This document shows positions 1 through 23,475 of a stretch of 64,000 nucleotides of DNA, in pieces. The DNA is taken from assembly GCA_003278095.1 (NCBI GenBank), contig QCHB01000002.1, positions 1 through 64,000 of the forward strand, given 5' to 3'. The notes below the pieces were generated by a model. The model saw only the letters and a list, made by a program, of their open reading frames with translations, ran no database searches and had not been told where the DNA came from. A program made the position numbers and the translations under genes. Numbering within the stretch: position 1 is the stretch's first letter; each line of letters opens with the position of its first letter. The stretch is from SAR116 cluster bacterium AG-390-L20 (GTDB lineage: Bacteria > Pseudomonadota > Alphaproteobacteria > Puniceispirillales > Marisalimonadaceae).

Positions 1-1158
1 AAATCCTGCATAACAAGAATTAGGTTCAATTAAAGTAATTAAAGTTCTAGATGTAAGGTCTATTCTTTTAAAAACTCTTGTCCAAAAGTATGAAATTTCA
101 TTCATTAACCAAAAGTTTTTATAGGTTTCAAATAACTTGTCATAGGATAAAACTTTAGAGATTTCACCAGACGTTTTGAAAACTATTATTCCAATTTCTA
201 ATTCGTTAAATCTTAAATTTAAGATAGTATCATCTAATTCTCTAGCACATTTCAAAAGCCAAAAATCATCACCTTGGGATAGAATTTCACTTAAATTTTC
301 AGGAGCATCTTCAAGAGGGGCATTAATGGTAATTGTAGCAGATTTTTTTTCTCTATCAATTTGGACAGATAATGTCGAATATGTAATCTCTTCATTACTA
401 ACAGTAGTTTTTTGTAAATTGTTAAGCTGAACACCTACTAAATTTTCATTTTGATTTTTATTGCAAGACTTATTCTTAATCAATGAATTAAGTTCATCAT
501 TTAAAGAAGTTTTTTTAGTAATCGTGTCAACTAAACGCCATTCTTTTGCTTTTTTTGCTTTGACACCTTCTTCCATAGTACAAAACACATCTGCAAGATC
601 TCTTCTGATTTTTCTTTTATCAGTGAGTCTGGTCAAGCCTCCTGTACCTGGAAGTACAGCTAAAAGGGGAACTTCAGGCAACGATATACTTGAAGATCCA
701 TCATCTAATAAAATTATATGATCACATGCCAAGGCAAGCTCATAACCACCTCCAGCGCATACGCCTTCAACTAAACATATAAAGAATTGAGATGCTTCTT
801 TGGAAGAGTTTTCTAAGAAGTTTCTAGTTTCATTAGTAAATTTACAAAAATTTACTTTATGAGCATGATCTGATGATGCAAGCATCTTAATATTAGCGCC
901 TGCACAGAATGCTTTTTCATTACCAGATTTTATAATTATTGAACTAATTTGAGGATGCTCAAATCTTAATCTTTGAACTGCGTCTGATAATTCAATATCC
1001 ACACCTATATCATAACTATTTAGTTTTAATTTATATCCCTCAAAAAAACCCTTATCCTCATCCACTTTCATTATTAAAAAAGCAGTATTTTTTTCAAATT
1101 TTAATTCCCAATGATTATATATTTCAGGGTATGTTTCAAAATTTATTTTAGGTTTCAT
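1..1158 (-). CDS. boxC: Benzoyl-CoA-dihydrodiol lyase, N-terminal part (runs off left edge)
   Basis: The reading frame starts with ATG at 1158 and stays open to base 1, giving 386 residues of a family usually near 550, so the C-terminus lies outside the window. BoxC cleaves the ring of 2,3-dihydro-2,3-dihydroxybenzoyl-CoA (formed via the epoxide made by BoxAB) in aerobic benzoate catabolism, releasing formate. Visible signatures are a crotonase-like core with KAFCAGANIKML, the segment VNFCKFTNETRNF, and GGGYELALACDH followed by LPEVPLLAVLPGTGG. A GAGAAG ribosome site precedes the ATG. It is the last visible gene of a minus-strand run that includes benzoate-CoA ligase and an alpha/beta hydrolase, as expected of a box operon. 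The boxA and boxB genes are expected beyond the left edge but are not seen. Confidence 0.9.
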   Translation of the reverse strand, partial: MKPKINFETYPEIYNHWELKFEKNTAFLIMKVDEDKGFFEGYKLKLNSYDIGVDIELSDAVQRLRFEHPQISSIIIKSGNEKAFCAGANIKMLASSDHAHKVNFCKFTNETRNFLENSSKEASQFFICLVEGVCAGGGYELALACDHIILLDDGSSSISLPEVPLLAVLPGTGGLTRLTDKRKIRRDLADVFCTMEEGVKAKKAKEWRLVDTITKKTSLNDELNSLIKNKSCNKNQNENLVGVQLNNLQKTTVSNEEITYSTLSVQIDREKKSATITINAPLEDAPENLSEILSQGDDFWLLKCARELDDTILNLRFNELEIGIIVFKTSGEISKVLSYDKLFETYKNFWLMNEISYFWTRVFKRIDLTSRTLITLIEPNSCYAGF

Positions 1159-1209
1159 TTATCTTCTCGATTTCCAAAAAACTAACTTATTATTAATGAT
1201 ATGATAAGT

Positions 1210-1983
1210 CTATAAAAGTTTTTTTATGAATTGGTCAATATGTTTGATCGTGGCATCTGGGTATTCATAAAATGGGTTATGTCCACAATTTTTAATAATA
1301 ATTTTTTTTAATGTAGAATTTAATTTGTCTTCCAGTATTTTCACCTGGTTTAGTGTTCCATAGGGATCATTAGTACCTTGTATCACTAAAATTGGAGTTT
1401 TTATTTTTGATAAATGATTTGAAATATTCCATTCTTTAAATTTGGGGCTTAACCAAACATTACTCCAACCAAAAAATGCATTATCTACATCATCATGATA
1501 TTTTTCTAATTTAGATTTGAGTTTCTTATTTTTATATTGATCAATAGTTTCTTCAATAGCTTTAATACTTTCATTTTCAACAAAAAAATGTGGAGCTATT
1601 AAAATTGTCCCTAGCAAATTTTTAGTTGACTTATTAACGCTTCCAATAGCTGCTATGGTTCCGCCATCACTATGACCAACTAAAAAATATTTGTTGATAG
1701 ATAGTTTTTCTAAAATAGTAGGTAAATATTTTTCAGCTTCAATACTCATATAATTAGTTGGTCTAGGTAATTTAGCATTTGACGATTTTCCATATCCAAA
1801 TCTTGAATAAACTAAAATATTTAACTTTGTTTTTTCATGAAGTAATTTTGGTATATTTCGCCACATAGCTATAGAGCCTAAGCCCTCATGTAACAAAATT
1901 AAAACAGGACTATTATTAGAAAAGTTTCCTAAGGTAATATACTCAATCTGTTTTTCTTCGATATCTAAAAAAGATGGTTTCAT
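1210..1983 (-). CDS. Alpha/beta hydrolase of the box (benzoate) operon
   Basis: This 257-residue protein has the alpha/beta-hydrolase fold signatures: oxyanion region LLHEGLGS, nucleophile elbow GHSDGG with Ser105, acid in GTNDPYG (Asp206) and base His235 in NCGHNPF. No signal peptide is seen, so it should be cytoplasmic. It lies 17 bases after the benzoate-CoA ligase stop and 51 bases before boxC, all minus strand, so it is probably cotranscribed. Box operons often carry such a hydrolase, thought to act as a thioesterase that recovers CoA or as an enol-lactonase-like enzyme. The sequence alone does not show which. Confidence 0.8.
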   Translation of the reverse strand: MKPSFLDIEEKQIEYITLGNFSNNSPVLILLHEGLGSIAMWRNIPKLLHEKTKLNILVYSRFGYGKSSNAKLPRPTNYMSIEAEKYLPTILEKLSINKYFLVGHSDGGTIAAIGSVNKSTKNLLGTILIAPHFFVENESIKAIEETIDQYKNKKLKSKLEKYHDDVDNAFFGWSNVWLSPKFKEWNISNHLSKIKTPILVIQGTNDPYGTLNQVKILEDKLNSTLKKIIIKNCGHNPFYEYPDATIKHIDQFIKKLL

Positions 1984-2000
1984 TTAAACTACTTAATAAA

Positions 2001-3551
2001 TTATCTTAATTTAAATCTTTGCACTTTACCGGTAGCTGTTTTAGGAAGTTCACTAACAAAATTAATCCATCTTGGATATTTCCATTTTCCAACTTTGTTT
2101 TTTACGTGCTCTTTCAAAATCTCTTCTTTGTCAGTTTTATTTATATTTTCGTTCAAAATAACAAAAGCACATGGTTTATCTAGTCCTTCATTGTCTTGTT
2201 TAGCAACTACAGCTGCCTCCAAAACTAAATCATGCGAAACTAGGGCCTGTTCCACTTCAAATGGAGAAATCCATATTCCACTTACTTTAAACATATCATC
2301 CGTTCTACCACTATAAATATATTTCTCATTGTTAAGTTTTTCATATTTATCTCCTGTTCTTGTCCACTCTCCTTCAAAAGTATTTCTTGATTTTGTTAGC
2401 TTGTTCCAATAACACATAGCAGATGATTCACCTTTAACAAGCAATTCCCCAATTTCACCAACGGCCACATCTTCACCATTTTCATCAACTAATTTTAAAT
2501 CGTACCCTGGCACAGCACTTCCTGATGTACCATAAGTTATATCGTTAGGTTTATTAGATAAAAATATATGAAGCATTTCAGTAGAACCAACACCATCTAG
2601 AATATCAATTCCTGTAATTTTTTTCCAATCAGTTCCAATCTGGAATGGTAGAGCTTCTCCTGCAGACACACATATTCTTAAATTTTGGTATTTTACTGGA
2701 GTTTTTTTTAGTTTTGCAGTCATAGCAGCATAAATAGTTGGGACAGCAAATAAAATAGATGGTTTCATCAACATCATAACTTCATTCACAGTATCGGGTG
2801 TTGGTCTAAGTGGATATAGTGCAGTTGTTGCTCCAACTCCCATTGGAAATGTCATAGCGTTGCCAAGGCCATAAGCAAAAAAAAGTTTGGCTACTGAGAA
2901 TACAACATCACTTTCTTTAATATCTAAAACTTTAGAAGCATATGTTTCGAAAGTGTTTAGAAGACTTCCATGAGCATGTATTACCCCTTTGGGTTCTCCA
3001 GTTGACCCTGACGAATACAACCAAAAAGCAGATTCATCTTTTGACACAATTATTGGTTTTTTTTCGACACATTTTTTAATTTCTTTTTTAAAATTTTTAA
3101 ACTGTTCATTATTTCTATTTTTACCAATTATAAAAATATTTTCGATTTCACTACAAATTTTGGTTGAACCAGTTATTAATTTAATGAGCTCTTCAGAAAT
3201 AAATATTGTATTAGCTCTGCAATCCTCTAATATTGTTTCGATTACTTCTTTCGATAAAAGAGTATTAATAGGAACTGGAATCACTCCAGCTTTTAAACAT
3301 CCCCAGAAAATTATTGGAAATTCAATTTGATCTAAAACCAACATTAATACCCTTTCTTCTCTTCGAACATTAAACTTTGTTAACAGATCAATAATTTTAT
3401 TTGTTTCTATAGATAATTCTTTATAGGTTATACTTCTTCCGTCAGGTATGGCTTCAACAAAAACATTTTTACTTTCAATTTTTGAGTTTAGATGTCTATC
3501 AATAAAATAATAAGATGCATTTGCTTTATTTATCTCTTTGTTATTTGACAT
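2001..3551 (-). CDS. Benzoate-CoA ligase family protein
   Basis: This 516-residue ANL-superfamily enzyme would activate benzoate or a related aromatic acid to its CoA thioester with ATP. The phosphate-binding loop is YSSGSTGEPKGVIHAH, followed by A5-like DGVGSTEMLHIF, the A7/A8 segment TRTGDKYEKL...YSGRTDDMFKVSG and the C-terminal catalytic-lysine motif PKTATGKVQRFKLR. VSGIWISPFEVE and the ending GKWKYPRWINFV are typical of benzoate-CoA ligases (BclA/BadA type). Its position immediately upstream of an alpha/beta hydrolase and boxC supports benzoate as substrate, feeding benzoyl-CoA into the box pathway. A 117-base gap separates it from the molybdenum hydroxylase genes, so it may have its own promoter. 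Confidence 0.88.
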   Translation of the reverse strand: MSNNKEINKANASYYFIDRHLNSKIESKNVFVEAIPDGRSITYKELSIETNKIIDLLTKFNVRREERVLMLVLDQIEFPIIFWGCLKAGVIPVPINTLLSKEVIETILEDCRANTIFISEELIKLITGSTKICSEIENIFIIGKNRNNEQFKNFKKEIKKCVEKKPIIVSKDESAFWLYSSGSTGEPKGVIHAHGSLLNTFETYASKVLDIKESDVVFSVAKLFFAYGLGNAMTFPMGVGATTALYPLRPTPDTVNEVMMLMKPSILFAVPTIYAAMTAKLKKTPVKYQNLRICVSAGEALPFQIGTDWKKITGIDILDGVGSTEMLHIFLSNKPNDITYGTSGSAVPGYDLKLVDENGEDVAVGEIGELLVKGESSAMCYWNKLTKSRNTFEGEWTRTGDKYEKLNNEKYIYSGRTDDMFKVSGIWISPFEVEQALVSHDLVLEAAVVAKQDNEGLDKPCAFVILNENINKTDKEEILKEHVKNKVGKWKYPRWINFVSELPKTATGKVQRFKLR

Positions 3552-3668: not shown

Positions 3669-4493
3669 TTACCTTCTGTACAGAGCAGTCTTTATGGTTT
3701 TTAGACCTATCTCTCTAACAATATCTCTTTTATATCTATCAGTACTGTATTGGTCATTTGTTGTATTAAGATCCCACGCAAAATCGTTTAAACTATCCTC
3801 AATTTGATTTAAATCGGTAGTTGACCATTCTATTGATGTCATTTTTTCACTAACACCGCCAACAACAAATCTAATAAAGTTTTCACCAGCAATAACTGCA
3901 AATGATGCCATTGCAAAGTCACCATATTTTTCTGATATTTCTTTAAATGCATATCCGGTATTTTTTTTTGACTTAGGTATTATTATACTTTTAATAATTT
4001 CATTAGATTTTCTCGATGTTAACAAAGGGCCTAGAAAAAAATCCTCTGCATTTACAATCCTTTGAGAAAATACACTCGATAATTTTAATTTTCCTTGAAG
4101 AGCAATAAAGCATAAAGGTATTTCAGAGCTTGGATCTGCATGACATAATGATCCAACAACTGTACCTCTTGCTCTATGCTGTTGATGACCTACATATGGA
4201 AGACATTCAAATAACAAGGGAAACTCTTCTTTTGTTTCTATTCTTTTTTCTAGTTCAATTTGCCTGTATAAAGCACTAATCTCAATATCAAATTTATTAT
4301 TAATTATTGGAACATCGTTTTTAATAGAATTTATATCTATTAAAATTTTAGGTTTAGCTATCCTCATATTTAACATTGCTATAAGAGATTGTCCTCCTGC
4401 AAGAATTTGTGAATCCTCTCCATATCTATTCAAGCCTTCTAAGGCTTCATGCCAAGTTTCTGGTTGGAGAAGGTCAAAAGAGGATGGTTTCAT
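3669..4493 (-). CDS. FAD-binding (medium) subunit of a molybdenum hydroxylase, HmfB/CoxM-like
   Basis: This 274-residue protein is the flavin subunit of a xanthine dehydrogenase-family enzyme, passing electrons from the 2Fe-2S subunit to the acceptor. The two FAD-binding loops are visible: AGGQSLIAML at residues 32-41 and TVVGSLCHADPSSEIP at about 111-126. The C-terminal CO_deh_flav_C region is present (to residue 274). The start overlaps the stop of the large subunit by 4 bases, so the two are translationally coupled. It lacks the cysteine-rich 4Fe-4S insertion of 4-hydroxybenzoyl-CoA reductase HcrB, which argues for a hydroxylating, not reductive, enzyme. The cognate 2Fe-2S gene lies at 11703-12212 in the same run. 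2-Furoyl-CoA dehydrogenase is a good candidate by context. Confidence 0.88.
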   Translation of the reverse strand: MKPSSFDLLQPETWHEALEGLNRYGEDSQILAGGQSLIAMLNMRIAKPKILIDINSIKNDVPIINNKFDIEISALYRQIELEKRIETKEEFPLLFECLPYVGHQQHRARGTVVGSLCHADPSSEIPLCFIALQGKLKLSSVFSQRIVNAEDFFLGPLLTSRKSNEIIKSIIIPKSKKNTGYAFKEISEKYGDFAMASFAVIAGENFIRFVVGGVSEKMTSIEWSTTDLNQIEDSLNDFAWDLNTTNDQYSTDRYKRDIVREIGLKTIKTALYRR

Positions 4494-7471
4494 TTAAACT
4501 TCCTCAAAAATTTAATAAAACTATACCATAAACTAGATTTTTCATATTTTGGAGAAACTGCCTTATTTAAGCGATCAAAGAATTGATTTATTATAATTTT
4601 TGAAGCTGTATTTAAAAAACGCCCACCAACTGCAGCTATTTTTCCTGAAATATTAATATTATATTCGTATGATAACTTTGTAGTGTTTGTGTTCAGAGAT
4701 TTCAGTTTTACTATACCTTCACCACTAGCTATCCCTAATGGTCCACTAGCCCTTCCAATAATTCTTAAACTTTCAGGTTTTGATAAATCTGTTAATTGAG
4801 CAGAAAAGTGATATTCACCCGTAATAGGACCAAAATTAATTTTAATCTTTCCTTCATATAAACAAGAATCCGTGATTTTTATGTCTTCATAAGTTGGCAA
4901 TGTTTTTGATAAAATTTTAGGATCTAATAAAAATGTCCATACTAATTCACGCTTTTGTTCTATTAAATAATTTCCATTGCCATTAATGAGGTTGTTTTTA
5001 GATTGAGTGGTATTTAAAAAATTACCTTGATTATTTTTTCTACGTTTTTTTTCTGTTTTGTCTATATGTGTATAACCATGTACCTTAGAGTGTGTTAATG
5101 GAAGTGTAACATTATCTAGTTTTAATGCGTCACAGGCAGCGTTTGCAATAGCCACTGGGGTTGACATGCAATTACCTTCACCTAAGCCTTTTGATCCCAA
5201 AGGTGTAAATGGGCTTGGAGTTTCAATATGAATTATTGTTGGTGTGATTATTTCTTTTGTAGAAGCAAGTAGATAATCTGCAAATGTACCTGCTAAAAAA
5301 GAGCCATCAGCCGTATATTTAAACTCTTCATATAGTGCTGCTCCTACGCCATGAGCAAATGCTCCATATATTTGGCCGTTAGCAAGAAGAGGATTGATAA
5401 TTTTTCCAGCATCATGACCTGTAATATACCTGTCAATCTTTGTCTTTCCTGTCATAGGATTTATTCTTAGGCCACATACATCAAAAACAAACCCGTAAGC
5501 TAGTGAACCGTTAATTTGATCTTTATTATTTGGAGGTGAAAGTTGTGGAGGTGTCCAATGAATAGTTTCCCTTAATCCATTTTCACAATTTTCTGGAAGA
5601 TTTCCTGGAGACCAATGAGCAGCGCCTACTAATCTGTTAAAAGATATTTTATTGTCGGAGTTATTTTTGTCTAGAACATAATTATTCTCAAAAATAATAT
5701 TTTCCTCGATAGAATTTAATTTTGAGGATGCAATTTTCAATAATCTTTTCTTAAGTTTTTCTGCTGCCAGAAAAGTTGTACCTGCAACCGCGCCTGCAAA
5801 TCTACTAGAATAGTTTCCTGCCGCAATCGACCATGCATCTTTTTGGGTGTCAAGTTCTCCGTTTACTAGGATATTTTCAATATTTATTCCAAAAACATCA
5901 GCAACAATTTGAGACAAGACTGTTTTATGGCCTTGACCTTGTGGTATACTATCGCACGTTACATAAACGCCACCTGTCGGTCCTATAGTCACAGAAGCAC
6001 TTGTAATAGCTCCTCCTTTATGACCTGTTTTTTCTCTTTCTTTAAAAGGAACGGCTGTTGTTATATAACCCATATTTGATATAGAAGGCTCCACGATGGC
6101 AGAATAACCGATGCCATATAGATCACCTTCTTCAATTGCTTTTTTTTGACGGATTTTTATTTCTTTAAATTGATCAGATTTAAGTACTTTTTCTATTAAT
6201 TTATTATATTGACCAGAGTCTAACAGGGCGCCCGATGCTGATTGATAAGGAAAATCTTTATCATTTACTAAATTTAATTTTATTACTTTCAAACGATCTA
6301 AATTTAATTCTGCAGCGATATTATGAACTAATCTTTCAAGTGCATAATAATGTTGGGGACCACCAAAACCTCTATTTAGCCCTGTGGGTGTTTTATTTGT
6401 AACAACAACTCGATTTCTACAAAAAATATTATCTATTAAATACGCTCCAGCTAAATTTCCATGCATTCTATACAATGAAGCTGGTTCTGGAGCTCTAAGA
6501 TAAGCGCCAACATCATCAATCTGATCATAATTTAATGCTAATATTTTTCCATTTTTTTTAACGGCGGCTCTTATATTTGTAACTCTATTAGTAGCAGAAG
6601 AGGCTGCAGTTAAGTGTTCGATTCTATCTTCAACCCATTTTATATTTTTACCAGATATTTTAGAAGCTAAACTGGTCAAAACCATCATTGGAAGAATTGC
6701 TTGTTTAATTCCAAAACTACCACCAGAATCTTGGTTCGAAATAAGTCTTAGTTTGTTTTCGTCTATGTCTAACGATCTTGATATAACAGAATGAAGACTA
6801 AATGGACCTTGAAAATTTGATTGTATGGTATATTGATTGCTCTCAGGATTATAATTGCTTTGAACAATAAATCCTTCTAAAGGTGTGCAACTATTTCTAG
6901 GGTATTCAATTTTTAACTTTACTATTTTATCTGCTTTTTCAAACGCTTGATTAGGGTTTCCATAACAAAACTCTCTGTCACTTAAAACATTAGTTTTAAG
7001 TTGATTATGTACTTTTGGACTGTCATCTAAAGTTGCTTTATATGTATCAATAATAGGCTCCAATTGTTTATATGAAACCTTAATATTTTCAATTGCATCC
7101 TCAGCTATATACCTATCTTTAGCTAATACTAAAGCTATTGGTTCGCCAACGTATCGAACAAATTCAATAGCACAAGGCCATACCTCAATATCAACACGAA
7201 GAACGGATAACAATGGTTTGGAAATTTTAGCAAACATGTTTCCATCAATAATTGAATGAACTCCCGGAATAGCAAGAGCTCCTGATGTGTCTATGTTAAC
7301 GATTTTACCAGATGCATATGAAGATCTTAGGACTGCCACGTGTAATGTACCTGGTGGATGACCTATATCATCACCAAACTGTCCTTTTCCAGAGATTAAT
7401 GTATCATCCTCTGATCTTTCAATACTTGAACCAATATAACAATCATCAATTTTAGTAATAGTCTTTTTCAT
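4490..7471 (-). CDS. Molybdopterin-binding large subunit fused to a CoxG/SRPBCC domain (HmfA/CoxL-like)
   Basis: A 993-residue protein. Residues 1 to about 780 form the molybdopterin-cytosine-dinucleotide catalytic subunit of the xanthine dehydrogenase family: N-terminal a/b hammerhead, GLNRGFGGPQ near residue 366, QGQGHKTVL and the catalytic Glu765 in GSKGLGEGN. After a basic linker (KKRRKNNQGN) the last 170 or so residues form a CoxG-type SRPBCC domain (GPITGEYHFSAQ, ASGPLGIASGEGIVKL), which in CO dehydrogenase systems is a separate membrane-recruiting protein. The form I CODH motif AYxCSFR is absent, so this is not a CO dehydrogenase. Partners are the FAD subunit (overlap of 4 bases) and the 2Fe-2S subunit upstream. 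It should hydroxylate an aromatic or heteroaromatic acid or acyl-CoA. Crotonase and ligase neighbours suggest 2-furoyl-CoA or a similar ring. Confidence 0.88.
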   Translation of the reverse strand: MKKTITKIDDCYIGSSIERSEDDTLISGKGQFGDDIGHPPGTLHVAVLRSSYASGKIVNIDTSGALAIPGVHSIIDGNMFAKISKPLLSVLRVDIEVWPCAIEFVRYVGEPIALVLAKDRYIAEDAIENIKVSYKQLEPIIDTYKATLDDSPKVHNQLKTNVLSDREFCYGNPNQAFEKADKIVKLKIEYPRNSCTPLEGFIVQSNYNPESNQYTIQSNFQGPFSLHSVISRSLDIDENKLRLISNQDSGGSFGIKQAILPMMVLTSLASKISGKNIKWVEDRIEHLTAASSATNRVTNIRAAVKKNGKILALNYDQIDDVGAYLRAPEPASLYRMHGNLAGAYLIDNIFCRNRVVVTNKTPTGLNRGFGGPQHYYALERLVHNIAAELNLDRLKVIKLNLVNDKDFPYQSASGALLDSGQYNKLIEKVLKSDQFKEIKIRQKKAIEEGDLYGIGYSAIVEPSISNMGYITTAVPFKEREKTGHKGGAITSASVTIGPTGGVYVTCDSIPQGQGHKTVLSQIVADVFGINIENILVNGELDTQKDAWSIAAGNYSSRFAGAVAGTTFLAAEKLKKRLLKIASSKLNSIEENIIFENNYVLDKNNSDNKISFNRLVGAAHWSPGNLPENCENGLRETIHWTPPQLSPPNNKDQINGSLAYGFVFDVCGLRINPMTGKTKIDRYITGHDAGKIINPLLANGQIYGAFAHGVGAALYEEFKYTADGSFLAGTFADYLLASTKEIITPTIIHIETPSPFTPLGSKGLGEGNCMSTPVAIANAACDALKLDNVTLPLTHSKVHGYTHIDKTEKKRRKNNQGNFLNTTQSKNNLINGNGNYLIEQKRELVWTFLLDPKILSKTLPTYEDIKITDSCLYEGKIKINFGPITGEYHFSAQLTDLSKPESLRIIGRASGPLGIASGEGIVKLKSLNTNTTKLSYEYNINISGKIAAVGGRFLNTASKIIINQFFDRLNKAVSPKYEKSSLWYSFIKFLRKFK

Positions 7472-7486
7472 TGAATTTAAGTCTCT

Positions 7487-8272
7487 TTAGTAGCCTTTAT
7501 AAACAGGCTTTCTTTTTTCAACAAAACTCTTAACTCCTTCATTAAAATCATCAGAGCTTCTTAATCTTCCATAAGTTTCACCCTCTAATTCAATTGCTAC
7601 GTGTAGAGGGGCGTCTTGTGATGTATTTAATACTGTTTTAATTGCTCTTTGTGCAAGTGGTGAAACAGAACAAAGTTCATCGACTAATTTCGAAATTGTT
7701 ATCTCAAGTTTATCTTTTTCTACTACTTCAGAGGCTAACCCCCAATTAAAAGCTTCTTCTCCAGAAATTTTCTTACCTCTCATAATCATATCTTTAACAC
7801 GAGATAATCCTATCATTCTAGCTAATCTTACCGAGCCACCTGACCCCGGTATCATACCGATTTTCATTTCTGGAAGTGATAATTGGGCACATTTAGTAAC
7901 AATTCGGAAGTCACACGCTAATGAAAACTCTAAACCAACTCCAAAACAATAACCTTGGATAGCTGCAATAACAGGTTTTCTTATTTTTTCTGGTGTCATA
8001 ACATTTTGAGCAAGCATCGTAAGTGTTTCTGGCGTCTCTTGCATAAAACCTTCAATGTTACCACCAGACGAAAAATGATCTCCATCTGCACGCAAAACAA
8101 CTATTCTAATTTCTTCATTTTTATCTAGATCTCTTAGAGATTGAGCTATTTGAATTCTTTGAGAGTACTGAATTATGTTTAATGGTGGTCGAGATAAAAT
8201 AATGTCACCTCGTCTTTTTTCTTGATTTATTTCTACCCTAAAACCGTCAAATTTACTAATTATACTAGACAA
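7487..8272 (-). CDS. Enoyl-CoA hydratase/isomerase family protein (HmfE-like candidate)
   Basis: This 261-residue crotonase-fold enzyme acts on a CoA thioester. The oxyanion-hole segment is HFSSGGNIEGFM. Both crotonase glutamate positions appear filled, in GVGLEFSLACDF and in LPEMKIGMIPGSGGS. It lies 15 bases upstream of the Mo-hydroxylase large subunit and 17 bases after the HpaB-family gene. In the furoate pathway a crotonase (HmfE) hydrolyses the lactone or 2-oxoglutaroyl-CoA, which would fit this position. An ordinary hydratase, or a ring-hydrolase like those of aromatic-CoA routes, is an equally possible reading. Family certain, substrate inferred. Confidence 0.85.
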   Translation of the reverse strand: MSSIISKFDGFRVEINQEKRRGDIILSRPPLNIIQYSQRIQIAQSLRDLDKNEEIRIVVLRADGDHFSSGGNIEGFMQETPETLTMLAQNVMTPEKIRKPVIAAIQGYCFGVGLEFSLACDFRIVTKCAQLSLPEMKIGMIPGSGGSVRLARMIGLSRVKDMIMRGKKISGEEAFNWGLASEVVEKDKLEITISKLVDELCSVSPLAQRAIKTVLNTSQDAPLHVAIELEGETYGRLRSSDDFNEGVKSFVEKRKPVYKGY

Positions 8273-8289
8273 TTATAACTCCTAATTTA

Positions 8290-9750
8290 TCAATTATGTT
8301 TTGGTGGATCATATTTATCCATTATGTTATCTACTACACCATCAAAATAATCCCATGGAGTTTCTCTGTAACTATGATTTTTAATTATAAAGGAAGCTCC
8401 AGCATAAAATTTTTCATATTGTTGTTGTCTGCCTGCAAATTCTGAACCTACTACATCCCACGCCAATTTGAATAGTTTCATTCTAGAAATTGCATCCATT
8501 TGAGGGGTTTGGAAATATGTTTCAAATTCTTTTTTAAGTTTTTTATTTTTAACAACGTTTATGCTTGCAGGCATTTGAAAGACACCTCCTCCACAAAGTG
8601 TCCTTAATTCATCAATAATTGTAGTATAGTTCTCTGTGCACCAGTTAAGAGCTGCATACATCATTCTTCTGTTAAAAGTCATATGATTTTCCGGCCAATT
8701 TTCTGCAGCTTCAATTTGTCCGTGTATCATGCCGGAAAGGTTTGCTTCCAGAGAAGACATTTTTCCTAGTGTTTCTTTTACTGCGGGCACTTGATCAGCT
8801 CCAGTTGCTTTTGCAACTTTATTACATAAGCCAGTAATTAATTCCATCTTTGACCAATACCTAACGTTGGCTTGGTGATTACCATAGCAATGTGCTGGAG
8901 TTTTTATATAAATTTCTCGAGCTAAAATTGCGTCGTCCATTACAAATATTCTGTCCCAAGGCACAAGTACATTTTCACACATCACCAATACATCTGTTTC
9001 GTCCAAATTCCATGATAAAGGTGAATCAAATTGATTAGCATAGTGGGTTGAAAGAGGTTGACGCATCCATAGTGATAACCCTTTTATGTTACATGGTATT
9101 GCACATGTAATTGACTGTTTTATCTGATCTGGTGCAAGAGGGACTAAATTACCAATCCAAATTTCATTTGCAAAAACAGCACTAGTTGCAAGCATTTTCA
9201 TACCCGATATCACTACACCTTCATCATTCTCATCGATAACAGACAAAGTTGGAATTGGAAGGTTTTGCTTTTGATAAAATTTTGGATTTCTTGCAGCTTG
9301 TGGCGGAACCACAGCATAAGAAGTAAATATATCATTTGATTTAATATGATTATAGTAATTAAGTAGGTTTTTCTTAAACTTATATTTTCCAGTGTCAAAA
9401 ATATCTGGGTTTGTTGACATTCCTGTTACAAAACTTGCAACATGGTCCATAGAACGTCCCATCATTCCAGATGTTTGGTCAGCAATAATTTTATGTGCAA
9501 CAGATCTTTTTCTTAAATCATTTTTACTTTTTGCTTGTAAGAACCAGCTAGAAAAAATTTCTCCATTTTCTTCAAATGTTAATTCATTTTTATATTTATT
9601 TTGATGTTTAATATCATACAATTTAGCTACAGTTTTTGCAGCATTCTTAAATGCAGGATGAGTTGTTACATCATTAATTTTTTTATCACCAATATATACT
9701 ACTCTTCCATCTTTTAATTGATTTAAATGTTGATCTCCTGTCTTAATCAT
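8290..9750 (-). CDS. HpaB-family flavin-dependent monooxygenase (4-hydroxyphenylacetate 3-hydroxylase-like)
   Basis: At 486 residues this matches the HpaB/PvcC family, FADH2-dependent monooxygenases related in fold to acyl-CoA dehydrogenases. The family signature MMGRSMDH lies at residues 96-103 and SYAVVPPQAAR at 144-154. The FAD region WSLDETDVLVMCENVLVPWDRIF-like segment and LCGGGVFQMP near the C-terminus are also typical. As I recall the HpaB active site (Arg/Tyr/His), the Arg is kept (R99), but the Tyr position is His103 and the His position is Tyr145, so the substrate is probably not 4-hydroxyphenylacetate. The cysteines of 4-hydroxybutyryl-CoA dehydratase are absent. Such oxygenases need reduced flavin from a partner. 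No reductase gene is adjacent; the nearest flavin-reductase-like gene is at 45516-46178. It is followed by a crotonase and preceded by a cupin. Confidence 0.85.
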   Translation of the reverse strand: MIKTGDQHLNQLKDGRVVYIGDKKINDVTTHPAFKNAAKTVAKLYDIKHQNKYKNELTFEENGEIFSSWFLQAKSKNDLRKRSVAHKIIADQTSGMMGRSMDHVASFVTGMSTNPDIFDTGKYKFKKNLLNYYNHIKSNDIFTSYAVVPPQAARNPKFYQKQNLPIPTLSVIDENDEGVVISGMKMLATSAVFANEIWIGNLVPLAPDQIKQSITCAIPCNIKGLSLWMRQPLSTHYANQFDSPLSWNLDETDVLVMCENVLVPWDRIFVMDDAILAREIYIKTPAHCYGNHQANVRYWSKMELITGLCNKVAKATGADQVPAVKETLGKMSSLEANLSGMIHGQIEAAENWPENHMTFNRRMMYAALNWCTENYTTIIDELRTLCGGGVFQMPASINVVKNKKLKKEFETYFQTPQMDAISRMKLFKLAWDVVGSEFAGRQQQYEKFYAGASFIIKNHSYRETPWDYFDGVVDNIMDKYDPPKHN

Positions 9751-9768
9751 TTTTGAAATCCTTTGAAG

Positions 9769-10158
9769 TTAAAATTCTTTTGTATTTTTATAATAATGTA
9801 ACTCGAAGAGAATACAGCCATTTTCCGATTTAAATGGTCCATGATAAACACCTGGAGGTCTACATGCATAAGTAGATCCTTTGAATTGTTTACCACCACT
9901 GCCATTTTTATCATTTCCTACAATTAAGTCGCCTGTAACTAAATAGACTTCCTCCCAGTGATCATGAATAAACTGTTCAGTAGTATAGACACCTGGGTCA
10001 AATTTTAATAATCTAGATCTACTTCCTGTTTTTTTAATTTCGTCAATATCAGAGGCTAAAATTTGCTGTTTTATTCCAGATGGATACCCTGTAGGAGTAT
10101 GCCAATTTTTGTCTGATGATATTTTAGTAAACTCAATATGTGGTTTTTGTTTTAGCAT
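9769..10158 (-). CDS. Cupin-domain protein
   Basis: A single-domain cupin of about 129 residues. I prefer the ATG at 10158, preceded by an AGAGGC ribosome site, over the in-frame TTG at 10179. Metal-site residues are visible in the first cupin motif (FIHDHWEEVYLVTG, with His, His and Glu) and in PPGVYHGPF of the second. It resembles ChrR-like or small-molecule-binding cupins. It sits between the CoA ligase and the HpaB-family oxygenase with gaps of 28 and 18 bases, so it likely belongs to the same pathway, perhaps as a dioxygenase, isomerase or ligand sensor. No specific function can be assigned. Confidence 0.75.
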   Translation of the reverse strand: MLKQKPHIEFTKISSDKNWHTPTGYPSGIKQQILASDIDEIKKTGSRSRLLKFDPGVYTTEQFIHDHWEEVYLVTGDLIVGNDKNGSGGKQFKGSTYACRPPGVYHGPFKSENGCILFELHYYKNTKEF

Positions 10159-10186
10159 AACTTTGCCTCTTAGTTTCAATATTTAT

Positions 10187-11710
10187 TTATAAATCTATTT
10201 CATACTTACCTGATAACAATTTTCTTCTTAGTATCTTACCAGTTGGGGATTTAGGGATTTCTTTAACAAAAATATACTCTTTGGGCCTTTTGAAATTTGC
10301 CATTCCAGATTCTAAACAAAACTTATTTAACTCGTTATTTTCAATAGAACCTAAACGTTTTATAAATGCACAAATCTTTTGACCCCATTTTTCATCAGGA
10401 AGTCCAACAACTGCAACTTCTATTACGTTATTATTTAAAGATAATATGTTTTCTATTTCAATAGGTGAAACATTTTCTCCACCTGTAATTATCATGTCAT
10501 CAACTCTTCCAGTAACAAAAAGATCTCCATCATTATCAAAATAGCCTAAATCACTAGTAAAATACCAATTATCTATGATTGATTTTTTATCAGCATCTGG
10601 TCTTTTTAAATAACCAGTAAATGCTTCTTCAGATTGAAGAGACGCTATAATTTCACCTTCAATATTTTTACCAACAGTTTTTTCAGGATTGTTAGAGCCA
10701 ATTTCAACTATCTTAATTCTTTGATTAATTCCTGCTTTACCTGCTGATCCAGGTTTCTTGTTCGCTTTGCGATCAACTGTAAAAGTATATATTTCAGACG
10801 AGCCATAATGGTTGACAAGTTGAGAAGGATTAAAGGCATCCATAACTTTTTTAATAAGACCATTGTTCATAGGAGCTCCTGCAAAACCTAATTTTTTACA
10901 GCTTTTAACTTTGTTTTTTGAAAATTCACTATCTTCTATTAGATCATGGAAAAGGGTAGGTACTAGATATAAACAAGTTATACCAAATTTTTCTATAAGT
11001 GAAATAGCCTCTGAAGATAAGAATTTAGGCTGTGATATAAATGCTCCATTAATTAGAGACATAGAAATTAAAGATCTTATCCCCATTGTATGATAAAGAG
11101 GCATAACCCCAAGTGTCGTTTCACCTTCAATATACATGTTTTGTGCCACATGTGCTAAAGCAGAAGATCTTTCGGCAGAATGTGTTCTTGGGACTCCTTT
11201 AGGCTTACCGGTAGTCCCAGATGTATATAAAATTACAGAGATACTATCATTTTTTGCAGAAGGATAATTTTCACTTTTACCATTTTGTATTAAGTCATAG
11301 ATATTTATAATTTTATTATTTTTATTACCAACAAAAATTTTAATAATTGATTGTGCATTTTTTGATTTACTTGTTTCATATAGACTTTCATCTTGGTAAA
11401 TAATACATTTTGCTTCCGAATTCGTTATACAGAAATCAATTTCTTCAGTTTTCATTCGCCAATTTAAAGGAACTAATATTAAGTCATTTAACTGACAAGC
11501 CCAGTGAATAGTTGCTGCTTCAAAACTGTTTTGAAGTAATGTAATTACTTTATCTTTCTTCTTTAATCCCAAATGTTTTAAAGCACCAGCTAATTTGTCT
11601 ATTTTAGAAAACCACTCTAGATAAGTATGTTTAAAATTATTACCTGCAATTGCAGTTGCTTTTGGATTTCTTTCAGTTGATGCTAAAAAAGATGATCCTA
11701 GATCAAGCAT
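10187..11710 (-). CDS. AMP-forming acyl-CoA ligase (HmfD-like candidate)
   Basis: This 507-residue ANL-superfamily ligase activates a carboxylic acid to its CoA thioester. Motifs are VILYTSGTTGKPKGVPRTHS (A3), VNHYGSSEIY (A5), YFTSDLGYFDNDGDLFVTGR (A7/A8), MIITGGENVSPIEIE and the C-terminal lysine motif PKSPTGKILRRKLL. It overlaps the 2Fe-2S subunit gene at its start by 8 bases, so the two are cotranslated. Because benzoate-CoA ligase is already present nearby, this one should serve a different acid imported by the Liv-type transporter encoded just upstream. 2-Furoate is the candidate suggested by the neighbouring Mo enzyme and crotonase. Confidence 0.85.
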   Translation of the reverse strand: MLDLGSSFLASTERNPKATAIAGNNFKHTYLEWFSKIDKLAGALKHLGLKKKDKVITLLQNSFEAATIHWACQLNDLILVPLNWRMKTEEIDFCITNSEAKCIIYQDESLYETSKSKNAQSIIKIFVGNKNNKIINIYDLIQNGKSENYPSAKNDSISVILYTSGTTGKPKGVPRTHSAERSSALAHVAQNMYIEGETTLGVMPLYHTMGIRSLISMSLINGAFISQPKFLSSEAISLIEKFGITCLYLVPTLFHDLIEDSEFSKNKVKSCKKLGFAGAPMNNGLIKKVMDAFNPSQLVNHYGSSEIYTFTVDRKANKKPGSAGKAGINQRIKIVEIGSNNPEKTVGKNIEGEIIASLQSEEAFTGYLKRPDADKKSIIDNWYFTSDLGYFDNDGDLFVTGRVDDMIITGGENVSPIEIENILSLNNNVIEVAVVGLPDEKWGQKICAFIKRLGSIENNELNKFCLESGMANFKRPKEYIFVKEIPKSPTGKILRRKLLSGKYEIDL

Positions 11711-12212
11711 CTTTAAGCCTGTTCTTTTTATTCTCTATCACTTCTTTAACAGCATTTACAATACCAACATATCCAGTACATCGACAAATATTTCCACTTA
11801 AGATTTCTCTAATATTATTTTCATTGATTTCTTTAGGTGCAGTTTTCAAAAAAGCTGAAATTGTTATAAGAAAACCAGGGGTACAAAATCCACATTGTAA
11901 AGCATGATGTTTCTTGAATGCTTTGCGTAAATGGATAAAATCTTCATCAGTTGATAATCCTTCTACAGTAACTAAGTTGTGCCCATTAAGTTGTGAGGCA
12001 AACATTAAACATGACCTGATAGGTTCTCCATCTAACAAAACTGTACAGGCACCACAAATTCCATGTTCACAACCAACATGTGTTCCCGTTTCTCCAACAG
12101 TATGTCTTATAAAGTCACTTAATAAAGTACGATTATTTGTTTCAGTTGAAACATTTTTTCCATTTAAATTAAATTCTACATTTAATTTTGAATTTGACTT
12201 GTATAAAGGCAT
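11703..12212 (-). CDS. 2Fe-2S (small) subunit of molybdenum hydroxylase, HmfC/CoxS-like
   Basis: A 169-residue electron-transfer subunit. The N-terminal plant-type 2Fe-2S cluster is bound by Cys48, 53, 56 and 68 (HVGCEHGICGACTVLL...SCLM). The C-terminal all-helical cluster is bound by Cys107, 110, 143 and 145 (LQCGFCTPGF, GNICRCTGY). It completes the three-subunit enzyme whose Mo and FAD subunits lie 4-8 kb downstream in the same run, separated from them by ligase, cupin, monooxygenase and crotonase genes. A GAGGAAAT ribosome site precedes the ATG. Confidence 0.9.
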   Translation of the reverse strand: MPLYKSNSKLNVEFNLNGKNVSTETNNRTLLSDFIRHTVGETGTHVGCEHGICGACTVLLDGEPIRSCLMFASQLNGHNLVTVEGLSTDEDFIHLRKAFKKHHALQCGFCTPGFLITISAFLKTAPKEINENNIREILSGNICRCTGYVGIVNAVKEVIENKKNRLKDA

Positions 12213-12279: not shown

Positions 12280-12918
12280 TTAGTTTATTTGACCACGTTC
12301 AATTACAAAAGATTTATCTAGCATTCCTTTGTAATGTCCTGCATTACTTTCTGCAATAAGGGTAGTAACACCTTCTTTTTTTAAATCGTTTAATATATCA
12401 ATTATTCTTTTAGCTAAGGCAGGAGCAATTCCTTCCGATGGTTCATCTAATAGCAATAACTTGCTCCCAACCATTAGAGCTCTAGATAATGCTATAAGCT
12501 TTTGTTGACCACCTGAAAGACTTGTTGAAGGTCGATCTTTTAGCTCTAATGCCTCTGGAATAATTTTATAAATCCATTCCAATCTCATTTTCCAATCCAA
12601 AATATTTGTAGCCCAAACTGGTGTTAAAATATTTTCCTCTGCTGACATAGATGGTATCAACTTTCTGTCTTCAGGCATGTATCCAATAGAAAGGTAGGCT
12701 CTTTTTTGAGAAGGAAGTTTTATTAAATTATTCTCTTCAAATATTAACTCACCAGATTTAGTAGGAAGTATGCCCATAATTGCCCTTAATAAGGTTGTCT
12801 TACCCGCACCATTTCTACCAATTAAACCAACCATTTGACCTTTTTGTAACTCTAAAGATACATCTTTTAGAATTTCAATTAATCCAATATTTACATTTAT
12901 ATTATTAATTTTTAACAT
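12280..12918 (-). CDS. livF: Branched-chain-type ABC transporter ATP-binding protein
   Basis: This 212-residue ATPase (a little short for LivF, which is usually near 235) has Walker A GRNGAGKTTLLRAI, the signature SLSGGQQKLIALSRALM and Walker B LLLLDEPSEGIAP. The H-loop position reads IAESN, where the usual His is not seen. It is the second ATPase of a complete Liv/HAAT-type importer. It follows livG by 26 bases and precedes the catabolic genes by 67 bases in the same direction, so the transporter probably imports the acid degraded by the downstream enzymes. Confidence 0.9.
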   Translation of the reverse strand: MLKINNINVNIGLIEILKDVSLELQKGQMVGLIGRNGAGKTTLLRAIMGILPTKSGELIFEENNLIKLPSQKRAYLSIGYMPEDRKLIPSMSAEENILTPVWATNILDWKMRLEWIYKIIPEALELKDRPSTSLSGGQQKLIALSRALMVGSKLLLLDEPSEGIAPALAKRIIDILNDLKKEGVTTLIAESNAGHYKGMLDKSFVIERGQIN

Positions 12919-12944
12919 AATTAAAATCCCAGAATCGTATCCTT

Positions 12945-13694
12945 TTAATGTCCTAAAACGTATTCAATAACCTTTTTATCTGATAATGCTTCCTTCGGAG
13001 GTGCATCACATATAATTTCTCCTTGATAAAAAGCAATAACGCGATCTACATATCTTTCAACAATTTCCATATCATGTTCAACAAATAGTACAGAAGTTTC
13101 AGTTTGTTTTAAGGCTGCAATTACGATATCCATAATCCCAAACTTTTCTTCAACAGAGACACCTGAAGTTGGTTCGTCTAGTAATATGACTTTAGGATTT
13201 CCAACAACAGCCATGGCAATATCTAATAATTTTCTTATACCCTGAGATAGTGTACTAACGATATTGTTACTTTGATCCATAATTTTATATAATTCTAAAA
13301 TTTTATCACATTCTTTAGAAATTTCTTCATCAGCTATTGGATCTAACAGTGCTTTTCCACTTTTCTTTGATAGAGACATGGCTATCATTAGATTCTGCTT
13401 AACTGACATTGTCATAAAAACTTGACTTATTTGAAATGACCTACATAAGCCAATATGAGTTGCGTTTCTGGGCTCTATTCCTGTTATATCTTCTCCTAAA
13501 AACTCTATTTTACCACTAGTAGGTTTCAAATAACCTGTGATCATATTTACAAAAACAGTCTTACCCGCACCATTTGCACCAATTATACCTACAATCTCAC
13601 CTTGATTAATTGAAACATTAATATCTTTAGCAGCAACAATTCCAGAAAAAGATTTGTTTAAGTCAGAAGCTTTTAAAACTGTATCATTTAACAT
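12945..13694 (-). CDS. livG: Branched-chain-type ABC transporter ATP-binding protein
   Basis: A LivG-type ATPase of about 249 residues. Walker A is GANGAGKTVFVNMI, the signature region is TLSQGIRKLLDIAMA, Walker B is VILLDEPTSGVS and the H-loop is VEHDME. I chose ATG 13694 because it is preceded by a GGAAAG stretch and matches usual family starts. An in-frame ATG at 13709 gives five more residues without a ribosome site. The gene overlaps the end of livM by 11 bases. Confidence 0.9.
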   Translation of the reverse strand: MLNDTVLKASDLNKSFSGIVAAKDINVSINQGEIVGIIGANGAGKTVFVNMITGYLKPTSGKIEFLGEDITGIEPRNATHIGLCRSFQISQVFMTMSVKQNLMIAMSLSKKSGKALLDPIADEEISKECDKILELYKIMDQSNNIVSTLSQGIRKLLDIAMAVVGNPKVILLDEPTSGVSVEEKFGIMDIVIAALKQTETSVLFVEHDMEIVERYVDRVIAFYQGEIICDAPPKEALSDKKVIEYVLGH

Positions 13695-14646
13695 TTTTTT
13701 TCTTTCCATAATTGAAAACTTTTTCTATGACGGACCATATACCCCCTGGAAAAAAGAAAATGATTGCAAGCAATGTACCTCCCACAATAGCAGCCCAAGC
13801 TTGTGGTGCCCATTCAAAAGCATAAGTTCTTATAAATTCAAATATAATAGCACCTATAAATGGGGCTAGAATGTTTCCCCATCCAGACATAATTGTAATA
13901 AATACTAACTCACCAGAAACATTCCAATTAACCATGGAATCAGGGTCAACTTGACCTAAGCTTGCTGCCATAAGCCCACCAGCACCACCTGCCAAACAGG
14001 CTGACATTACATATTTAATATGTATCGCTTTTTGGACAGAATAACCTAAGTATTCAACTCTTATTTCGTTATCTTGAATGGCAGTAGTTAGATGTCCTAG
14101 AGTTGATCTTAGATACGCTTGTATAGAAATTGCAGCACAGATAACAAAAAATGTAATTAAATAAAAGAGGTATTGCCTAGTTAATTCCATCCCTAAAAGT
14201 GTTGATGGAGAAATTGACATGCCGTCCGTAGATCCAAGAAATTCAGCTTTTGCTAACAAACCATACAAAACCATAGAAAAAGCAAGAGACAACATCGCAA
14301 AGAATATTTCTCTATATTTTCTTAAAATAAATCCAAGACAAAAACCTAATAGGCCTGCAGCAATTACAGCAATTGCAAATCGTAGTAAAATGTCAGTGAT
14401 ACCAAAATATTTTTGACATAACGCTACCGCATATGCTCCAAAGCCGTAATAGAGTGCATGTCCAAAAGAAACTAAGTTTGTTCTCCATAATAACATAAGA
14501 CCTAAAATTGCCAATCCTCTGGATAAACCATACATAAAGTTGTTTTGCATCCAGTCAGGAAGAACTAAAGAAGACAAAACACACAAAACTACCATAAATG
14601 TGATTAAGATTCTTACACTTGTATCTTTAAAAATACCTGTAAACAT
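13684..14646 (-). CDS. livM: Branched-chain-type ABC transporter permease
   Basis: This 320-residue integral membrane protein has about nine or ten hydrophobic segments starting at residue 11. The family hallmark segment is MVNWNVSGELVFITIMSGWG-like, with GNILAPFIGA. It pairs with LivH to form the pore of an importer for amino acids or, in this subgroup, aromatic and other carboxylates. Start and stop are coupled: the livH stop TAA and livM ATG share a base at 14646. Confidence 0.9.
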   Translation of the reverse strand: MFTGIFKDTSVRILITFMVVLCVLSSLVLPDWMQNNFMYGLSRGLAILGLMLLWRTNLVSFGHALYYGFGAYAVALCQKYFGITDILLRFAIAVIAAGLLGFCLGFILRKYREIFFAMLSLAFSMVLYGLLAKAEFLGSTDGMSISPSTLLGMELTRQYLFYLITFFVICAAISIQAYLRSTLGHLTTAIQDNEIRVEYLGYSVQKAIHIKYVMSACLAGGAGGLMAASLGQVDPDSMVNWNVSGELVFITIMSGWGNILAPFIGAIIFEFIRTYAFEWAPQAWAAIVGGTLLAIIFFFPGGIWSVIEKVFNYGKKKNVK

Positions 14647-15542
14647 TAAATTTTCCTTGGTTTTGGTGGTGCAAACAATCCCTCTGGACGAATAATTAAA
14701 ACAATCGCCATAACAGCAAAAACAACAAAAAGTTCTAATATAGGAGCTTGATGAACTGCAAAAGCTCTTAATATACCAACAATTAAAGAACCTATTAGAG
14801 CACCTGGAATAGACCCCATGCCTCCGATAACCACCACCGCAAAGCTTAAGACTACTAGATCAATAGCAAAACCAGGAGATACAGATGTTGTTGGTGCTAC
14901 ATAAGCACCCCCTAAAGCACCTAAAATAGCGCCACCAATGAAAGTAACAACATATACTTTAGTTACATCAATACCCATTGCCACACTTATTTCTCTGTCA
15001 TATATAACTGATTGAAGTAGCTTCCCCCATTTTGTTTTTGTCAGACCATACCAACATGCAAATGCAACTATTGAAGCAAGAAGTATAAGAGTAAGTTGAT
15101 AAACACCTCTGTTTAATCCGACAATGTCAACCCAACCAAGCATCATTGCAGGTTGGTAGGGAAGATAAGGGTCAACTCCAAAAGTAATAATAATTAAATC
15201 TTCAAAAATTAAAAAAACACCAAATGTCGCTAAGACTATTAGATGTATATCTTGATTATACATTTTTCGAAGTATAAATCTTTCAATTACGTATCCTAGA
15301 ACTACACCAACTAAAATCGCGGAAATTAAAATGGCTGGCAAGAAAAGAGCCTCTGATAATTCATTGTCTGTAATAAATCCAATAGCAAAAGCTGCTGTGT
15401 ATGCCCCCCACGCATAAAAACTTCCGTGAGCAACATTTAAGATTTTCATTACTCCAAAAATAATAGTAAGGCCTAAGCTCACTATAAAAAGATATGAGGC
15501 ATAGGTTAGACCATCTAATAAAACGGTTGCCCAAAATTGCAT
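14646..15542 (-). CDS. livH: Branched-chain-type ABC transporter permease
   Basis: A LivH-type permease of about 298 residues with eight or so membrane spans. Characteristic segments are LNVAHGSFYAWGAY and VVVIGGMGSIPGALIGSL. I chose the ATG at 15542, which has GGAG seven bases upstream. The open frame extends to a TTG at 15563, but that codon sits against a hairpin and has no ribosome site. The gene is separated from livK by a strong hairpin (15565-15596) that may lower its expression relative to the binding protein. Confidence 0.9.
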   Translation of the reverse strand: MQFWATVLLDGLTYASYLFIVSLGLTIIFGVMKILNVAHGSFYAWGAYTAAFAIGFITDNELSEALFLPAILISAILVGVVLGYVIERFILRKMYNQDIHLIVLATFGVFLIFEDLIIITFGVDPYLPYQPAMMLGWVDIVGLNRGVYQLTLILLASIVAFACWYGLTKTKWGKLLQSVIYDREISVAMGIDVTKVYVVTFIGGAILGALGGAYVAPTTSVSPGFAIDLVVLSFAVVVIGGMGSIPGALIGSLIVGILRAFAVHQAPILELFVVFAVMAIVLIIRPEGLFAPPKPRKI

Positions 15543-15564
15543 TTTAAAACTCCAAAACGGCAAT

Positions 15565-15596
15565 AAAAAAGGATGCTTAAATTAGCATCCTTTTTT
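15565..15596 (-). terminator. Hairpin with T-run between livK and livH (partial terminator or mRNA stabiliser)
   Basis: A perfect inverted repeat: A6-GGATGCT, a six-base loop, then AGCATCC-T6. It lies entirely in the gap between the livK stop and the livH start. Read on the minus strand it has the shape of a Rho-independent terminator with a U-tract. Because the permease and ATPase genes follow directly in the same direction, partial termination or protection of the livK 3' end is likely. Either would give more binding protein than permease, as is known for several ABC operons. Confidence 0.75.
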
Positions 15597-15603
15597 ATAA
15601 AAT

Positions 15604-18456: not shown

Positions 18457-18459
18457 TTT

Positions 18460-19314: not shown

Positions 19315-19326
19315 TGATTAACTTTA

Positions 19327-23474: not shown

Positions 23475-23475
23475 A

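Follow-up and report, generated by a model that had tools for sequence, protein, structure and literature searches.

A predicted furoyl-CoA operon variant with an HpaB-type monooxygenase and a small cupin is conserved in marine SAR116 bacteria

Bacteria of the SAR116 clade are abundant in the surface ocean. The window analyzed here, a 64,000-nucleotide stretch of DNA, belongs to a 2.2 Mb genome whose nearest named relative is SCGC AAA536-G10 (97–100% over the genes compared); further near relatives fall mostly within SAR116. The genes under study are as follows.

15604–16920, minus strand: Liv-type periplasmic binding protein (SBP; Pfam Peripla_BP_6)
14646–15563, minus strand: LivH-type permease (translation and position; named by synteny and by eye)
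13684–14646, minus strand: LivM-type permease (translation, position and synteny; named by eye)
12945–13709, minus strand: LivG-type ATPase (translation and synteny; named by eye)
12280–12918, minus strand: LivF-type ATPase (translation and synteny; named by eye)
11703–12212, minus strand: 2Fe-2S subunit, HmfC homologue (Fer2/Fer2_2; 49–54% to hmf clusters)
10187–11710, minus strand: AMP-forming CoA ligase, HmfD homologue (AMP-binding; 49–52% to HmfD homologues)
9769–10158, minus strand: small cupin, conserved partner of HpaB-type genes
8290–9750, minus strand: HpaB-type (group D) flavin monooxygenase of the R99/H103/Y145 clade (HpaB_N and HpaB)
7487–8272, minus strand: crotonase family protein, HmfE homologue (ECH_1; 50–55% to HmfE homologues)
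4490–7471, minus strand: Mo large subunit with a C-terminal CoxG domain, HmfA homologue (MoCoBD_1/2, COXG)
3669–4493, minus strand: FAD subunit, HmfB homologue (FAD_binding_5; 36–40% to hmf clusters)

The cupin frame was listed to 10179 with a TTG start; an inner ATG was adopted, which sets its start at 10158. Transcription order is SBP-LivH-LivM-LivG-LivF-FeS-ligase-cupin-HpaB-crotonase-MoL-FAD. A sequence-only reading had placed these genes here in one direction, with a Liv-type importer heading the run and the Mo subunits split by the ligase, cupin, HpaB-type gene and crotonase. The positions bear this out: all genes lie on the minus strand, the SBP and LivHMGF (12280–16920) precede the rest on the same strand, and the split is apparent in the order of transcription. 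Intergenic gaps from the FeS to the FAD gene range from −8 to +28 bp, and the LivF–FeS gap is 67 bp. With overlaps and gaps this short, one transcript is likely.

Below 3551, outside 3669–12212, the same strand carries three more genes, which form part of a box (benzoate) cluster. Directly after the operon, positions 1–3551 encode a member of the benzoate-CoA ligase family (669.7 bits to TIGR02262, against a cut-off of 375), an alpha/beta hydrolase and BoxC, the last truncated at the window end. In a near-identical relative (L043), BoxC scores 807.7 bits against a cut-off of 712, and the gene after it is a partial BoxB reaching 485 of 499 bits; the same ligase, hydrolase and BoxC lie downstream in each of the three genus relatives (L043–L045) for which that flank is available. 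The ligase and hydrolase at 1210–3551 were considered as operon members and rejected as box genes on the BoxC and BoxB of L043, and the genes below 3551 look like a separate benzoate pathway.

All five HmfABCDE homologues are present in a single run, as the sequence-only reading had proposed in invoking Hmf-like logic. In the passages of PMC6678421 on the described Hmf pathway, a ligase step is followed by C5 hydroxylation and by a lactone opening given without an assigned gene, with HmfE proposed for thioester release. The HmfABCDE system of Cupriavidus basilensis HMF14 likewise combines a ligase, a three-subunit Mo hydroxylase and a crotonase in one operon; PMC6678421 gives ADE20399–ADE20403 as the accessions of its HmfA–E. 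Its order is A-B-C-D-E, whereas SAR116 has FeS-ligase-cupin-HpaB-crotonase-MoL-FAD, and the SAR116 run adds the cupin and HpaB. As references we used hmf clusters from Dinoroseobacter shibae, Paraburkholderia, Caballeronia M1242, Caballeronia NK8, Cupriavidus and Geobacillus. UbiD and UbiX lie near the D. shibae cluster, and UbiD, UbiX and GMC near those of Paraburkholderia and Caballeronia M1242; the NK8 cluster has HmfABCD only. Neither UbiD nor UbiX was found in the SAR116 operon run. The Mo large subunit is 46–49% identical to its counterparts in these clusters, alongside the identities listed above for the ligase, crotonase, FeS and FAD subunits.

A 67-row tree places the SAR116 Mo large subunits inside the HmfA clade (SH-aLRT 100), with the genome’s own CoxL outside it. 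The proposed phylogeny of the Mo subunit thus groups it with HmfA and not with CoxL, where HmfA is represented by genomic hmf clusters rather than by the assayed C. basilensis protein. The tree came from a quick search with long-branch warnings and included one stray row (L061_11424, just a CoxG fragment, 15% filled) and duplicate rows of three of the genome’s own paralogues. Although the subunit shares the Mo hydroxylase superfamily with CoxL of aerobic CO dehydrogenase, it scores 394.2 bits against the CoxL profile TIGR02416 (cut-off 991.15), and a CO-type dehydrogenase was rejected on this score, a CoxL above the cut-off being encoded elsewhere in the genome. That gene (G000:C4:171588-173903) reaches 1370.9 bits against the same cut-off of 991.15, and since it clears the threshold this SAR116 cell may oxidize CO.

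The HmfA clade also holds Mo subunits from several operons in which no HmfD-type ligase was found in the stretch read, so an HmfA-like subunit alone does not mean furoate. Homologous operons lacking the ligase had been named beforehand as a sign against the furoate-type reading. This sign is partly seen, in those operons of the wider HmfA clade whose stretch read showed no HmfD-type ligase; within SAR116, the ligase is kept in 14 of the 14 relatives whose ligase stretch remains uncut (16 fetched).

On this point the ligase is more informative. At the 132 positions constant in 17 HmfD homologues, SAR116 ligases keep 116–124 (88–94%; window ligase 118), as compared to 110–117 in four deep relatives, 106 in a second Geobacillus ligase and 53–69 (40–52%) in four unrelated ligases. 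SAR116 crotonases keep 70–73 of 76 HmfE-invariant positions (window crotonase 70), deep relatives 59–62 and another crotonase 33. Since nearly all HmfD-invariant residues are kept, the ligase substrate is probably still furoate-like. The Hmf-like logic of the sequence-only reading therefore stands, and its suggestion of a modified substrate fares less well for the core, where the ligase residues argue that the activated acid stays close to furoate. Most likely, the core would take 2-furoate, or a very close analogue, through furoyl-CoA to 2-oxoglutarate. The Mo enzyme could instead act on another ring thioester, such as a substituted furan or thiophene, with the whole operon shifted in substrate, ligase included. 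The loss of twelve positions, invariant in 17 HmfA rows, from all eight SAR116 rows would agree with such a shift, as would the HmfA-like operons in which no HmfD-type ligase was read, which loosen the tie between this Mo clade and furoate. Only 3 of the 132 HmfD-invariant and 2 of the 76 HmfE-invariant positions are lost in all eight SAR116 rows, however, and we consider the shift distinctly improbable.

A second Mo module lies directly upstream of the operon in eight relatives (L044, L046, L048, L049, L051 and L053–L055) and comprises FAD and FeS subunits, a metallo-beta-lactamase-fold protein, a Mo large subunit, an SDR-like gene and a ligase. A similar second set of Mo subunits comes after hmfABCDE in one other genus (three genomes, L199–L201), and the second Mo subunits of the two groups pair in the tree (SH-aLRT 99). 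Two unrelated families have this module beside hmf, where it might act as an aldehyde oxidase that supplies furoate.

Within the order, the Mo subunit was found at 59% identity or higher in 16 of 136 genomes, the window’s included, and an HpaB orthologue accompanies it in 16 of 16 (136 searched). A seventeenth genome (G061) has only an HpaB fragment at a contig end, and one further fetched locus (L058) carries an HpaB of only 35–36% in a different setting. Of the 16 fetched SAR116 relatives, 11 have all seven genes in this order; in the other five a contig end truncates the run, and the visible part agrees. In every SAR116 copy that is not contig-cut, the cupin and HpaB sit between HmfD and HmfE. 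The importer travels with the core: LivH is 93–100% identical in genus relatives and 73–76% in family relatives, and SBP relatives at 75% or higher occur in 14 other genomes of the order, every one with the Mo subunit. Judged from its sequence, this is a furoyl-CoA operon variant conserved within a marine clade.

The SBP (15604–16920) is 100% identical to that of G046, while the Mo subunits of the same two operons are only 72% identical, a discrepancy that suggests operon mosaicism or recent exchange.

The HpaB-type protein has the same two Pfam domains as 4-hydroxyphenylacetate 3-monooxygenase, HpaB_N and HpaB, and aligns with Thermus HpaB (2yyg) at 216.5 bits. It differs in scoring below both curated cut-offs (TIGR02309, 316.0 versus 480.2 bits; TIGR02310, 212.7 versus 885.2), in a Tyr/His swap and in the makeup of its operon, where no flavin reductase gene was found in the run. 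Residues R100, Y104 and H142 of Thermus HpaB, which we take to be its substrate triad, correspond to R99, H103 and Y145. The swap is present in 45 of 45 rows of the clade (rows of at least 400 aa kept, shorter ones dropped), the window protein and a dozen or so SAR116 near-copies being among them. Fourteen other HpaB-like rows of the order, from six-frame scans of 14 loci, comprise five R/Y/H (L024–L028), eight R/E/S (L029–L036; another subfamily or a misalignment, and counted for neither side) and one with the swap (L023), near a contig end with no cupin seen. A canonical 4-hydroxyphenylacetate hydroxylase was rejected on the cut-offs and the unkept Arg/Tyr/His triad, and so was a 4-hydroxybutyryl-CoA dehydratase/isomerase (1u8v, 70.6 bits; 6vjr, 51.5 bits), both scores lying far under the HpaB match. 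The enzyme would need reduced flavin, perhaps supplied by one of two PF01613 (flavin reductase family) genes elsewhere in the genome, one of which is at 45516–46178 of the window.

Six plasmid loci have a cupin next to HpaB; the SAR116 cupin is 52–62% identical to those of five and 37% to that of the sixth. Residues H65, E69, E70, H106, E119 and H121 are invariant in 51 of 51 rows and H67 in 49 of 51; from the alignment, a metal site could be formed by His65, His67, His106 and His121. No relative was found by sequence in the PDB up to E = 1. The structural model (mean pLDDT 92.8) has a plain cupin fold, for which acetylacetone dioxygenase Dke1 ranks first by Foldseek E-value and 29th by VIA Z, with many cupins tied. 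The small cupins Dke1, KdgF, TM1459 and ChrR are 21–24% identical to the SAR116 protein, and the predicted fold alone gives no function.

A profile scan of bacterial genomes confirmed at least 551 relatives of the cupin, of which the best 80 were kept (13 from SAR116 and 67 others). Flanks of the 67 were of very unequal length, 27 of them covering at least 20 kb (both flanks about full). By tblastn in this best-80 set, DUF2848 was detected at 48 of the 67 non-SAR116 loci, an HpaB-family gene at 28 (11 of these at 59–74%), an amidase at 15, a flavin reductase at 9 and any match to the ligase queries at 6. In the stretches covered, none of the 67 has a full HmfABCDE set of the hmf type; ten have a distant Mo hydroxylase, its large subunit up to 34% identical to HmfA, and L136 carries, close to a contig end, an HmfD-like ligase (59%). 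These gene neighbors indicate that the cupin is widespread and normally found in another setting, often without HpaB.

At the non-SAR116 loci among L074–L145, the cupin and DUF2848 are accompanied by either HpaB or a FAD monooxygenase of group A, and at times by an amidase. The cupin–DUF2848 loci are a lead to a putative catabolic unit. One of the ten loci with a distant Mo hydroxylase, from an alphaproteobacterium (L096:1-14132), places a cupin and an HpaB (37%) beside a crotonase, a ligase and a three-part Mo hydroxylase; the last three are only distantly Hmf-like (25–50%), and the arrangement is possibly a second, separate merger of like enzyme types.

Neither an amidase nor DUF2848 was found beside the cupin–HpaB pair in the SAR116 operons. 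Amidase-family matches occur elsewhere in the window’s genome, away from the operon, and a search of that genome for DUF2848 gave no match, nor did it give a positive control match.

One reading of the pair is that it hitch-hikes, having entered by a single insertion in a SAR116 ancestor with a function unrelated to the Hmf core. That its relatives elsewhere mostly sit apart from hmf genes would fit; its retention in all 16 genomes with the Mo subunit argues against it, as does the proximity of pair and core in three other places. G328, from another family, has Liv genes, HmfABCDE, the cupin and HpaB within about 20 kb of one contig. In Caballeronia NK8 and Cupriavidus P-10 the pair lies on a plasmid about 5 kb from HmfABCD and about 25 kb from HmfABCDE, respectively. 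We judge hitch-hiking very unlikely.

The G328 importer is related to the window’s (SBP 50%, LivG 59%), and its SBP relative lies beside HmfABCDE. A DHDPS-family gene in G328 is 60% identical to one beside the SAR116 operons. As this gene also accompanies the same importer with no hmf nearby (L308–L311), it tells more about the importer than about the cupin and HpaB.

Co-occurrence points in the same direction as the linkage, with limits. Among 385 genomes of the class, HmfA was scored in 26 (on at most two candidates per genome) and the cupin in 26, with both in 15 as compared to 1.8 expected. As a control, the unrelated gene BoxC overlaps HmfA in 21 of the 26 genomes (5.4 expected). Split by BoxC, the overlap of HmfA and cupin is 12 versus 3.4 expected in the positive stratum and 3 versus 0.2 in the negative; counted by genus, the only count here that considers kinship, it is 9 versus 1.2. 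The co-occurrence is thus in good part an effect of catabolic generalism, and an excess remains within the BoxC strata. Because the BoxC control overlaps HmfA too, we take these counts only as support.

From gene content, gene order, clade and linkage we infer the reactions, the substrate and the sequence of the HpaB and cupin steps. The Liv-type importer would take up a small ring acid for the HmfD-type ligase to convert to its CoA thioester, the HmfABC-type Mo enzyme would hydroxylate the ring at C5, after which the ring would open, and the HmfE-type crotonase would release 2-oxoglutarate. HpaB would act by hydroxylating a five-membered ring, either substituted or related, and a metal-bearing cupin might cleave or isomerize the HpaB product, which would then enter the furoyl-CoA core or bypass it. 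Most likely, we infer, the pair handles a ring acid, substituted or related, that it either readies for the core or breaks down by a parallel route. Our leading interpretation, to which we give a probability of about 0.5, is a SAR116 variant of the furoyl-CoA pathway, with HpaB and the cupin as an added oxidative branch of that same pathway.

The substrate of this branch is perhaps a substituted furan or pyrrole-2-carboxylate. Degradation of pyrrole-2-carboxylate is CoA-free and ends at 2-oxoglutarate. Table 1 of PMC6165268 lists pyrrole-2-carboxylate monooxygenase (EC 1.14.13.130) as a group D flavin monooxygenase, and the title of its paper, as referenced there, calls it two-component. That listing makes pyrrole-2-carboxylate a fair candidate; the enzyme acts on a five-membered ring acid, and its likeness to the SAR116 HpaB is one of class and not of sequence. 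The cupin’s partners elsewhere, DUF2848 at most loci and an amidase at some, are absent from beside the SAR116 pair, which weighs against this candidate.

The same candidate underlies a reading with two parallel routes served by one importer and one operon, HmfABCDE acting on furoate and HpaB with the cupin acting on pyrrole-2-carboxylate without CoA. The shared group D class favors it, and so do the seemingly unchanged HmfD residues, by which the core needs no modified substrate, and the cupin loci outside SAR116, mostly without a CoA ligase nearby and in some cases with an amidase. Nonetheless, the lack of an adjoining amidase or DUF2848 in SAR116 and the interleaving of the pair between HmfD and HmfE, which suggests one pathway, make two routes rather unlikely. 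A bolder form of the one-pathway interpretation is possible, though on balance doubtful: the swapped-triad group D monooxygenase and the histidine-rich metal cupin could be an undescribed pair for oxidative cleavage of a ring or side chain, the first hydroxylating a five-membered heteroaromatic and the second cleaving the enol or dicarbonyl so formed. Grafted into the SAR116 furoyl-CoA pathway, the pair might provide a marine route for substituted furans or pyrrole-2-carboxylate, and elsewhere the cupin would work with DUF2848 and, in some loci, an amidase.

In the part of the open-licence literature covered, we found no paper on SAR116 use of furan-type acids (papers elsewhere are possible) and nothing relevant on furoic acid together with a cupin gene cluster. 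Open-licence searches likewise returned no paper on DUF2848 and none on a cupin with 4-hydroxyphenylacetate 3-monooxygenase and an amidase in degradation. In excerpts of PMC8941161, 2-furoyl-CoA appears for sponge symbionts only as a KEGG label. A gene set resembling the known one for furoic acid, found in ocean bacteria with an importer and two additional oxygen-handling enzymes, points to a pathway variant; the fixed SAR116 gene set offers a concrete substrate list for testing, and the wide occurrence of the cupin alongside HpaB or DUF2848 could guide the search for a catabolic unit.

Several further genes lie upstream of the importer. Positions 17125–24327 encode a BenE-family permease, a protein close to PRK04334 (UPF0280) and a fused FeS-Mo hydroxylase with a FAD subunit; the gene at 19327–20316 has no Pfam or NCBIfam match and is perhaps 6-hydroxynicotinate-reductase-like by eye. 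Parts of this block adjoin the importer in several SAR116 relatives. A hydantoinase A/B pair at 24467–28287 is nearest caprolactamase CapA/CapB, under the cut-offs, and the contig of G328 described above also carries a pair nearest the CapAB lactamase, again under its cut-offs; hydantoinase A/B-like pairs recur near hmf and cupin–HpaB loci. Finally, the ligase at 28337–29971 is close to 3-methylthiopropionyl-CoA ligase (787.5 of 822 bits), which suggests possible DMSP metabolism near the operon.
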